Assembly (NCBI GenBank): GCA_003584005.1
Contig: QXHL01000026.1
Location: forward strand, 1 to 37,458
DNA length: 37,458 nt
Source: Alicyclobacillaceae bacterium I2511
GTDB lineage: Bacteria; Bacillota; Bacilli; Alicyclobacillales; Alicyclobacillaceae
Direction: 5' to 3'
This document shows, one piece after another, positions 34,003-37,458 of this stretch. Both the position numbers and the translations under genes were made by a program. Below the pieces are notes generated by a model, which was not told where the DNA came from, ran no database searches, and was given only the letters and a program-made list of their open reading frames with translations. Numbering within the stretch: the first letter of the stretch is position 1; each line of letters opens with the position of its first letter.

Positions 34003-34289
34003 AAAAAGTTATGGTTAATGGGTGTGTTCCGTGAGAGATAGATATAAGCTTAATTATCTGAATAGTATATTTTATAACAAATATTTTCCTAAATAACATC
34101 GGTATAAATGAATTCATTGGTTGAAGATGAAGAGTATGAGGGAAGCAATTTTGTCTCTATAGGTCTGGGTTGATATCAGAACTGAAGGACCAGGTTTTCA
34201 TAAAATAGGTGTTGTCGTATGTCGCTAATTTTTTGAAATTAACTTTTTAAGGGACTACACACACTTTTTATTTGGGGGAAGGAAAATTT
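33989..34289 (+). other. AT-rich intergenic region before the permease
   Basis: There is no gene. It is noticeably AT-rich compared with the flanking genes. TTGAAA near 34233 followed after 17 nt by TACACA is a possible but poor promoter for the permease. No further TGGT-N3-ACCA site was found here, so the permease may be controlled separately. Confidence 0.4.
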
Positions 34290-35807
34290 ATGCATGAGAA
34301 CCAGTTGAACCGAGTACTAGGTATTATGGCTGTGATTGCATTTGGTGTGACCAATGAAATCGCCGCAGGACTGTTCTTTATTTCGACCCAGATTCAACAG
34401 AGTTCGCCTGGAGTAGGAAGTCTCGTTCCACTGCTGATGATTATCGGTGGCATGATTACCTTTGCTACTGTCGTTGTTTACCGATTTTTCTTCGCAGCAG
34501 GACTTGTGGGAGCCGGTGGAGAGTACGTCATCATCTCCCGAGCGCTTAGCCCTGGGGTTGCTTTCGTGGCGACATTTTTGGCCTGGTTTGGGTTCACTGG
34601 TGCACTCGGCACGTTGGCCTATACAGCTCCTCATTTTCTCGCCACCGCAGCCACATCGTTTGGAGATGCTAGTTTGGGCAAATTTCTCTCTTCCACTGGG
34701 GGTATTCTCATTGTCGGGCTGATTATCTTGTGGGGGTTTTGGCTGATTCACGTTCGTGGCGTCCGTTTGGCGGGGTTGCTTGCGATTATTGCAATGGGGC
34801 TTGTTCTACTGGTTGCACTTGTCATGATAGTTTACGGTTTTTCTACCAGTCCGGCTACTTTCGATTTTGCACTGGCGCATCACCTGCATAAGTCAGCAGA
34901 GTCCATTATGGCTGTGGCGCCCGTGAAAAGAACTAGCTTAGGAGTCGCGTTCGGCTCGGCTTTACCTGTTCTATTCTTTGGGTACCTTGGACTTTCTACG
35001 GCAACTCAGACTGGTGGGGAAGCGAGGAATGCAAAACATTCTCTGGCAAGGGGTGTGCTGATTGCCGTCTCACTTGTGACCGTGATTTATACCTTATTTG
35101 CGGCGGCCATTTACCACGCTGTACCTTGGCAGGTCATTGCCGGCCTTGCCAAATTAAAGATGTCTGCCTATACTACATCATCCGGTCTTCTACAGTTTGT
35201 CATGCCACAGTGGCTGGCGTCACTGATTAACCTCTTGGTGGCGCTCATTGTTATGAAGACCTTGCTCCCTATTTTCCTGGCCCAGTCACGTTGGGTCTAT
35301 GCTTGGAGTGAAGACGGACTAATTCCACCTTTCTTTGCCAGGACACATGCCAAGTTCAAGACTCCTGTCTTAGCTCTGACTCTGAGTGCTCTGTTTGGAT
35401 CAATCAGTCTAGTGGAATCAATTCAATTGGGATACGTGTTTGGGGTGAACGTCCGGGTCCTGTCCGTAATGATTGTGTTCTTCTTTATGGGTCTCGGTAT
35501 GCTGATGTTTCCGAAACATGCACCGGAACTATACGCTGCAAACCAATCCTCCCTTGCGACGAACAGACTCTTGCAGGTGACGGTTGGTGTATTCTTGATG
35601 CTGGTATCAGTTTGGTTTTCAGTGTCCATCACGTTGTCTTCTTTGAAATCACCATTTTTCTTACAGCCAGTGGTGCAAACGGTCATTGTTGCTTTGATTG
35701 GGGTTCTGATTTACTGGCGCTACTTGACTACGTTAAAAAGACCAGGTTTGGACCCTGCGGTGATATCCGCTTCTAGAGAACGATTCAAACACGCGCCGTT
35801 ACAATAG
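34290..35807 (+). CDS. APC-superfamily amino acid permease
   Basis: This 505-aa integral membrane protein has about 12 hydrophobic segments and the APC hallmark in helix 1 (IAFGVTNEIAAGLFF). GAGGEYVIISRALSP (about residues 76-90) is the helix-3 region, and FGYLGLSTATQTGGEARNAKHSLARG is the helix-6 and following loop. It carries an amino acid or related amine across the membrane. ATG 34290 lies after GGAAGGA. A racemase-family gene follows on the same strand, which fits amino-acid uptake and conversion. The two genes are separated by a 145-nt structured element. The substrate cannot be assigned. Confidence 0.88.
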   Translation: MHENQLNRVLGIMAVIAFGVTNEIAAGLFFISTQIQQSSPGVGSLVPLLMIIGGMITFATVVVYRFFFAAGLVGAGGEYVIISRALSPGVAFVATFLAWFGFTGALGTLAYTAPHFLATAATSFGDASLGKFLSSTGGILIVGLIILWGFWLIHVRGVRLAGLLAIIAMGLVLLVALVMIVYGFSTSPATFDFALAHHLHKSAESIMAVAPVKRTSLGVAFGSALPVLFFGYLGLSTATQTGGEARNAKHSLARGVLIAVSLVTVIYTLFAAAIYHAVPWQVIAGLAKLKMSAYTTSSGLLQFVMPQWLASLINLLVALIVMKTLLPIFLAQSRWVYAWSEDGLIPPFFARTHAKFKTPVLALTLSALFGSISLVESIQLGYVFGVNVRVLSVMIVFFFMGLGMLMFPKHAPELYAANQSSLATNRLLQVTVGVFLMLVSVWFSVSITLSSLKSPFFLQPVVQTVIVALIGVLIYWRYLTTLKRPGLDPAVISASRERFKHAPLQ

Positions 35808-35829
35808 AAACCAAATGGGTACAAGTGTG

Positions 35830-35974
35830 TGTCCGGAAAGGGGTCTGGTCAGACCCAAGCAGTGCGAGGAGACCAGCCCCAAATGCGCACTGAGCGTACG
35901 TTTTCGGTACGTGAAGGAGCATTTGGGGCGACGACGCGGCAATGCGTCGGGGAGTTCTGACCCCTTTCCGGACA
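35830..35974 (+). other. Cloverleaf-forming element (structured RNA or small mobile repeat)
   Basis: A 16-bp perfect closing stem pairs TGTCCGGAAAGGGGTC (35830-35845) with GACCCCTTTCCGGACA (35959-35974). Inside lie three hairpins: TGGTC/GACCA (35846-35850 with 35871-35875); GCCCCAAATGC/GCATTTGGGGC (35876-35886 with 35919-35929, 11 bp perfect), enclosing a further CGTAC/GTACG hairpin; and CGACGC/GCGTCG (35932-35937 with 35944-35949). The GGGTCTG/CAGACCC dyad at 35841-35856 is an alternative fold. TACAAG occurs just outside both ends (35820-35825 and 35980-35985), which could be a target-site duplication. No known RNA class was recognised. A 60-codon open frame across it looks accidental. Confidence 0.65.
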
Positions 35975-35990
35975 ACCTCTACAAGAGGTT
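35974..35990 (+). other. Small hairpin after the cloverleaf
   Basis: AACCTC and GAGGTT form a 6-bp perfect stem with a 5-nt loop. Its CCTCT could alternatively pair with the AGGAGG ribosome site of the racemase gene at 36045-36050. Confidence 0.35.
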
Positions 35991-36059
35991 AAACTGAAAT
36001 TTGTTTGGGTTAAACGATAGACTCACGCAGGTGCAGAATCACTTAGGAGGACGATTTTG

Positions 36060-36815
36060 GTGAAAACAGTTGGCATTTTAGGTGGATTAGGCCCACTTGC
36101 GGGTGCTCATTTTTATCGTAGGTTGATTGAGTTGACCCCTGCATCCGGGGATGATTCTCACTTACCTGTGATACTTCTGTCGGACCCGGCAATACCAAGT
36201 CGAATTCTGCACCTAGAAGGAGTAGGGGAGTCTCCTGTCCCCAAACTACGGGAACTTGCCAGTAAGCTAGAGGCGATGGGGGCAGGTTTGATTGCTATTC
36301 CTTCTACCACTACGAGTATTTATTTGAAAGAAATTTCTTACGGACTTAGTATTCCGATTCTCTCCCTTGCGGAGGAAGTTACCCAGGAAATTGTGAGGGC
36401 AGGGGCTGAAAAAATTGGAATATTAGCCACAACTCCTACGCAAGTGCTAGGCATCTACAATGCGGTATTTCGTCAGGCTGGGTTGCACGCAATCTATCCT
36501 GACGAAGTATCACAGCGGGAAGTGATGGGGGTTATTATGCGAGTCAAGGATAGTTCTAGATTTTCTATTCACCCGACTTCACAATCCAAATTTGAGTCAT
36601 TTTCCCAGTTAGGCAAAGAAATTCTTACCTTAGCAGGAAGGCCGTGGAGTCGAGGCATAGATGTGTTACTCTTAGCCTGTACAGAAATACCTGTAATATT
36701 TCCTATTGAAGACTGGTATCAAAGTGATAAATCTACAATACCATTATTTAGTTCAACTGATATTTTGGCGCAGGCTGTGATACGAGAGGCGTACGAATTA
36801 GGACATCTCAATTAA
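36060..36815 (+). CDS. Aspartate/glutamate racemase family protein with one catalytic Cys replaced
   Basis: This 251-aa protein of the Asp/Glu/hydantoin racemase superfamily opens with KTVGILGGLGPLAGAHFYR and has SDPAIPSRI. PLP-independent racemases use two cysteines, normally in PCNTAH and LGCTE. Here the first motif is IPSTTTSIY with serine at residue 82, while the second, LACTEIP, keeps C207. Some one-cysteine members (such as E. coli YgeA-type, with Thr in place of the first Cys) are still active on one enantiomer, so this may be a directional racemase or epimerase, or a different isomerase. The start is GTG 36060 (9 nt after AGGAGG) or TTG 36057. The neighbouring APC permease suggests an amino-acid substrate. 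Confidence 0.82.
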   Translation: MKTVGILGGLGPLAGAHFYRRLIELTPASGDDSHLPVILLSDPAIPSRILHLEGVGESPVPKLRELASKLEAMGAGLIAIPSTTTSIYLKEISYGLSIPILSLAEEVTQEIVRAGAEKIGILATTPTQVLGIYNAVFRQAGLHAIYPDEVSQREVMGVIMRVKDSSRFSIHPTSQSKFESFSQLGKEILTLAGRPWSRGIDVLLLACTEIPVIFPIEDWYQSDKSTIPLFSSTDILAQAVIREAYELGHLN

Positions 36816-37059: not shown

Positions 37060-37294
37060 CCGTTTCTCTCCTCCTCGTCCCCTATAACGGGAGTACCCAT
37101 CTCTTCGTGGGTAAATAAACGTCCCGTCCTTGTCCAACGGGGGCCGTGTTAAAACGGTATGGGCTGGACATGCTCCAAGAGGGTTTTTCAAACATGGAGA
37201 CTGTGGGCTCTTTTCGCGGAGACCCATCACGGCGCCTGCTTTCCCTAGAGTGGAGGGAATCCCCGAGACCCTAACCCTTAGCATTACCCATAAG
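37060..37294. other. Spacer between rpoA relic and transposase
   Basis: No gene was recognised on either strand. The terminal inverted repeat of the IS should lie close to the transposase stop, near 37260-37290, but I cannot fix its limits from one end. ACCCA/TGGGT makes a small hairpin near 37095-37112. Confidence 0.35.
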
Positions 37295-37458
37295 TCATGT
37301 TGGATGGAGGATCTCCCACATTGTGGTTAGATCCTCAAGTCGACGGAGTCCTTTCCAAAGGACTTTCAGACCCGGATTACCGTCATGTGCACGCCCTAGA
37401 AAACCGCCGAGCTTTGCAATCCACAGTACTGCGGTTTGCAAGTTTGGTGGGTGTTCGG
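37295..37458 (-). CDS. IS4-family transposase, C-terminal end (partial, runs off window)
   Basis: The minus-strand frame entering from the right edge reads LWIAKLGGFLGRAHDGNPG, then LKVLWKGLRRLEDLTTMW, and stops at TGA 37297-37295. This closely follows the conserved C terminus of IS4/IS50-group DDE transposases (IARLGGFLGRKSDGEPGVKVLWRGLRRL). Only about 54 residues lie in the window; the DDE catalytic residues would be outside it. It shows that the right border of this segment is an insertion sequence, and it explains why a plus-strand open frame from 37297 is only a shadow. Confidence 0.8.
   Translation of the reverse strand, partial: EHPPNLQTAVLWIAKLGGFLGRAHDGNPGLKVLWKGLRRLEDLTTMWEILHPT

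Follow-up and report, generated by a model that had tools for sequence, protein, structure and literature searches.

Introduction

The nearest published case of the element described here is bcr1, which, like the group A repeats of the Bacillus cereus group, is an intergenic repeat of about 147-167 bp that occurs in many copies, has a conserved secondary structure and resembles miniature transposons (MITEs) (PMC2267715, PMC6542083, PMC3446304). It has been tied to a 5-bp TTTAT motif and is partly transcribed (PMC6542083, PMC2267715, PMC3446304), and these repeats have been described as specific to the B. cereus group (PMC2267715, PMC6542083, PMC3446304). TIMEs are Tn3-derived inverted-repeat miniature elements, whose ends derive from the larger transposon that moves them (PMC4133298).

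In this study, we analyzed a stretch of 37,458 nucleotides from Alicyclobacillaceae bacterium I2511 (hereafter the window), in which a strongly folded segment lies between two genes. Based on its copies, their target duplications and a candidate partner insertion sequence, we suggest, with a probability of roughly 0.88, that the segment is a non-autonomous miniature transposon moved by an IS1182-related transposase. We found no published account of this family, which is weak evidence of novelty since most subscription papers lay outside the literature search.

Results

Boundaries and fold of the element

The folded stretch lies in the 249-nt gap between the permease and racemase genes (35808-36056), upstream of the racemase gene and on its strand, and its unit is a 155-bp element at 35825-35979 (Table 1). 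A first-pass annotation had already named the two genes, and both labels were right by Pfam. It had also pointed out strong pairing, all of which was present: a perfect 16-bp closing stem (35830-35845 with 35959-35974), a perfect 11-bp internal stem (35876-35886 with 35919-35929), and TACAAG on both flanks (35820-35825 and 35980-35985). The folding energy of 35815-35995 was -91.6 kcal/mol, compared with -59.6 ± 4.3 kcal/mol for shuffled sequences (z = -7.45), and none of the 200 shuffles folded as well.

When the edges were set by aligned copies and their duplications, the reading of TACAAG as a target duplication was right in kind but one base too long. The duplication is the 5-bp TACAA, and the G does not belong to it, being base 1 of the element on the left and a flanking, preferred target base on the right. 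No open frame of at least 80 aa is listed inside the element, which carries no gene, and no sigma-70-like promoter was found around it. The element scored 188 bits with a covariance model built from copies that include the window copy itself. Comparison with Rfam 15 gave no match at the gathering threshold, and the matches at E values up to 10 were only at chance level, in agreement with the earlier remark that the fold belongs to no RNA class that could be named.

Table 1. Features of the element and its neighbors in the window
Feature	Position	Strand	Basis
Amino-acid permease gene, upstream neighbor	34272..35807	+	Pfam AA_permease_2
Target duplication TACAA, left copy	35820..35824	.	Identical to 35980-35984; perfect 5-bp repeat at the same place in 69/116 copies elsewhere
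Putative miniature transposon, 155 bp	35825..35979	+	Edges from aligned copies and duplications; covariance score of 188 bits
Left end: tip GTGTG and 16-bp inverted-repeat arm TGTCCGGAAAGGGGTC	35825..35845	+	First 16 bases resemble the insertion-sequence end GAGCGTGTCCGGAAAG
Covarying middle stem, 5' side	35876..35886	+	11-bp perfect inverted repeat; most pairs change on both sides across copies
Apical hairpin GCGTAC...GTACGT, near-invariant	35894..35912	+	Consensus helix 6; sequence nearly fixed among copies
Covarying middle stem, 3' side	35919..35929	+	11-bp inverted repeat and covariation
Right end: inverted-repeat arm GACCCCTTTCCGGACA and tip ACCTC	35959..35979	+	Right tip same as in the Alicyclobacillus fastidiosus plasmid insertion sequence
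Target duplication TACAA, right copy	35980..35984	.	Duplication at the edge
Asp/Glu racemase gene, downstream neighbor	36057..36815	+	Pfam Asp_Glu_race

Copies in the own genome and in relatives

The dispersed copies for which the first-pass annotation had proposed to look were found in the genome itself and in relatives of the same genus, family and order. The own genome contains about 26 near-full copies that are 86-99% identical to the window copy, together with many partial ones and short forms of 43-96 bp. A search with the 16-base arm, allowing up to three mismatches, hit 83 and 85 places on the two strands, compared with 30 and 23 for a reversed control. Among 46 paired copies collected from this genome, 23 were exactly 155 bp long, 11 were 48-bp hairpins of the two ends alone, and the rest were intermediate; the collection was not exhaustive, and the own-genome counts are lower bounds. 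By a simple open-frame survey, 24 of 25 examined own-genome copies lie between genes. Lone ends, considered as possible edges of a large autonomous element, were rejected as such, because they proved to be short or degenerate copies with ordinary genes next to them.

Sulfoacidibacillus thermotolerans and Ferroacidibacillus organovorans are among the named carriers, and copies also occur in Bacillota genome bins. The covariance model found matches in 30 of 399 Bacilli genomes, the weakest of which are doubtful, and the same design of 152-157 bp recurs in other Bacilli families. We re-read 20 further copies together with their flanks, taken both from the same order and from other families; 19 measured 152-157 bp and one 216 bp. 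No match to the element emerged from searches of plasmids and phages, nor did three distant copies match anything in the plasmids searched; one pattern scan of viral contigs was also empty.

Relatives also carry a form of 279-280 bp that encloses another structured repeat, about 125 bp long (L101 6465-6589; also L106, L125, L140, L146, L155 and L170). The positions and terminal stems of this nested repeat differ between host elements, and standalone relatives occur at L104 7478-7600, L146 930-1042, L155 2370-2483 and L149 1060-1173. Rfam gave no family at a credible score for the nested repeat or the longer form. In another copy (L147 7349-7502), the apical stem-loop is inverted relative to the remainder of the element, which is expected if the hairpin arms recombine. 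Short tandem GTGTCCGAAA repeats run on from one element end at L064 4097-4190 (G000:C186) and apparently arose when the end sequence slipped locally.

Target duplications and insertion sites

Perfect 5-bp direct repeats stood exactly at the edges of 69 of 116 distinct copies, and when the frame was shifted by 1-3 bases the number fell to 0-2. The duplications follow the consensus TWWWA (TATAA, TTAAA, TAAAA, TTATA and similar). Among the 69 perfect ones, C precedes in 48 and G follows in 52, giving a preferred target of C|TWWWA|G. The left tip is mostly GTGYG or GAGCC. Of the 20 further copies, drawn from seven genomes in the same order and in other families of Bacilli, 17 also had perfect duplications. 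No clean empty site came to light when the sister genome was compared. Since the 48-bp forms that lack the core also have perfect duplications, the core would not be needed for insertion, unless these forms arose by deletion after landing.

A candidate partner insertion sequence

Searches with PF13751, DDE_Tnp_1 and rve first turned up an IS1380-family insertion sequence in the own genome (L173 508-2216, G000:C194), which is apparently intact; it was rejected as a partner for its different ends (CCTGAAATATTCAT) and AAAAA duplication. The true IS1182 copies of one relative, which were also set aside, resemble the element at their ends (GAGTCTGTCCGAC) but are flanked by CTAG duplications. Because of the similarity of these ends, we searched the carrier genomes with the NCBIfam IS1182 model and then read the ends of the hits, and this search found the partner. 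A same-order genome contains an intact insertion sequence of 1638 bp (L299 1593-3230) that has GAGCGTGTCCGGAAAG at both ends and is flanked by the duplication TATTA within CTATTAG. It encodes a 441-aa protein with DUF772 and DDE_Tnp_1 domains, whose best NCBIfam match is IS1182. With NF033551 (IS1182), this locus scored 109 bits and L296 scored 100 bits, neither reaching the cut-off of 270, and thus the L299 transposase is IS1182-related and not a member of IS1182 by this test.

A plasmid of Alicyclobacillus fastidiosus carries an intact homologue (L314 2383-4018) with the left tip GAGCG, the right tip ACCTC and the duplication TATTA, and the ends of further homologues, GAGCCTGTTCAAAAAG and GAGGTTGTTCAAAAAG, are exactly the left and right MITE ends in a second family of the same order. 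The partner and the MITEs of the related group agree in 16 of 16 end bases, in left and right tips that differ from each other, and in a 5-bp TWWWA duplication. Beyond the ends, the element and the insertion sequences have no common sequence, and the insertion sequences contain nothing like the core. The IS1182-model search revealed no intact partner in the draft genome of the window, only a decayed, shortened copy (L294 2071-2903 = G000:C148:25070-25902) that is 74% identical over 165 aa. Based on these sequence comparisons, the L299-type insertion sequence is probably the mobilizer of the element, and the evidence from ends and duplications for cross-mobilization by its transposase, which we infer, is strong.

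Apart from the element, two relatives (L187 and L185) have stretches that lie next to or inside DDE transposase genes and match the last 182 bases of the window (37277-37458) at 75-77% identity, so that the start of an insertion sequence is probably located at the contig end.

Structure and constraint of the core

The first-pass annotation had described a 145-nt cloverleaf. Its fold was real, but the unit is longer, and the consensus of 42 diverse copies formed one long imperfect rod of 37 pairs, in which 98% of cells pair. Double changes at 14 pairs amounted to 108 cells in these 42 copies, compared with a shuffle mean of 33 and at most 34 when the pairing was slid. In the 20 re-read copies, the letters of the middle stem were quite different yet paired, and the apical hairpin was nearly fixed. 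Double changes occurred at all 10 middle-stem pairs in a wider alignment, which was fitted to the structure, holds a few reverse-strand rows and so leans towards structure.

When two near-invariant G-U pairs were set aside, G-U cells of the core exceeded A-C cells on the + strand by 67 to 24. Since such an excess favors single-strand folding over a duplex signal, these results favor a core that folds as one strand, either RNA or single-stranded DNA, but are only indicative, the copies being related. Recent copies in the own genome showed no G-U bias (6 to 5), which suggests a constraint on the spreading lineage and not on individual landed copies.

In several Bacilli, weak matches of the model at 30-47 bits fell in 16S-23S spacers (L250, L251, L252, L256 and L262) and in tRNA clusters (L255, L258, L260 and L263), and a GAGCGTAC...GTACGTGA hairpin was common to these matches and the element by eye. 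However, reverse strands of true copies reached 37-50 bits with the same model, so that the spacer matches are not secure, and we did not accept homology.

Discussion

The element has the hallmarks of a MITE: it is 155 bp long with no coding capacity and perfect 16-bp inverted-repeat arms, it occurs in many dispersed copies with target duplications, and its ends and duplication length are common to an autonomous element (L299 and the A. fastidiosus plasmid copy, TATTA). Based on these observations, we suggest that an IS1182-related DDE transposase would recognize the common ends of about 16 bp, cut with a 5-bp stagger and insert the element. Less surely, the covarying core may act as a single strand, as RNA in read-through transcripts or as single-stranded DNA, and may be retained because the lineage spreads better with it or because insertions are then better tolerated. 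Any effects on the racemase gene at this locus would be incidental.

The first-pass annotation had weighed a REPIN- or MITE-like mobile repeat against a leader RNA of the racemase gene, and the MITE-like reading is borne out by the dispersed copies, the TACAA-like duplications that sit exactly at the edges and an insertion sequence whose ends match. A REPIN, in which a RAYT (Y1-type) enzyme would move a pair of palindromic repeats, would also be a short intergenic palindrome in many copies, and Y1-type genes are present in carrier genomes. However, the open frames of several top Y1 hits are 134-150 aa long, the size of IS200-type TnpA, the perfect 5-bp target duplications are not made by REPINs, and the ends match a DDE-type insertion sequence and would not belong to a RAYT/Y1 system. 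A REPIN is very unlikely here. A structured leader that controls the racemase gene, for instance by blocking access to the ribosome-binding site, agrees with the strong fold upstream on the strand of the gene and with a core that covaries like RNA. Against it, own-genome copies of the same element adjoin unrelated genes (cas1, SNO/pdxT, beta-eliminating lyase, amino-acid permease, ketoacyl synthase and hemerythrin), the flanking duplication is the mark of an insertion, and the CCTCT opposite AGGAGG, previously proposed as a masking signal, is the conserved right tip ACCTC (99 of 116 copies) plus the first base of the target. In addition, a racemase search of six same-family genomes gave only two matches, both in the sister genome. 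We thus rejected the racemase association, and a dedicated racemase leader is very unlikely.

Two further readings accept the transposon ends. Another, unseen transposase might be chiefly responsible for moving the same MITE, in which case the IS1182-related insertion sequence would be alike only at its ends; an intact partner was not found in the own genome, and a relative's true IS1182 copies also have similar ends, yet with CTAG duplications. We consider this quite improbable, since the partner has all 16 end bases of the related-group MITEs together with the asymmetric tips and the 5-bp TWWWA duplication. Alternatively, the core might be a host-useful RNA, domesticated in places such as the rRNA and tRNA spacers, for which the transposon ends are a vehicle. 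Its pairs covary, with two G-U pairs almost invariant and an excess of G-U over A-C cells among the others on the + strand, and the weak matches fall in 16S-23S spacers and in clusters of tRNA genes. On the other side, the 6-to-5 ratio in recent own-genome copies makes single copies look neutral, and the scores of reverse strands leave the spacer matches insecure; we regard a host-useful core as unlikely. A wider proposal, which we put forward only tentatively and consider doubtful, is a Bacilli-wide MITE superfamily whose structured RNA core is selected for spread or host use, with degenerate cores domesticated in 16S-23S spacers and tRNA clusters.

With the miniature-transposon reading, a structured intergenic repeat of several Bacilli families gains a mechanism and a probable partner transposase. 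MITE interiors usually drift freely, whereas in this element a covarying fold and an almost constant apical hairpin have persisted while the sequences diverged widely, and the conserved core offers a way to test if a working RNA can be carried by a miniature transposon.

The known systems resemble the element in different respects. REPIN and REP sequences are likewise intergenic palindromes in many copies, while the element has target duplications and ends in common with a DDE insertion sequence and probably not with a RAYT. IS1182 is approached through the partner transposase, by its DUF772 and DDE_Tnp_1 domains and best NCBIfam match, and through the similar ends of true IS1182 copies; the partner differs in its score of 109 bits against a cut-off of 270 and in its 5-bp TWWWA duplication in place of CTAG, and the element itself is geneless. 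Tn3 transposons usually make a 5-bp AT-rich duplication, and their ends start with GGGG at the outer edge. TIMEs are similar in being miniature elements with the ends of a larger transposon, but the Tn3-type outer edge GGGG contrasts with the tips GTGYG or GAGCC and ACCTC of the element. The bcr1 repeats, compared by description only, are similar in size, structure, intergenic multi-copy occurrence and a 5-bp motif; they are described as specific to the B. cereus group, whereas the element is spread across several Bacilli families, and its analysis may bear on the unexplained bcr-type repeats of Bacillus.
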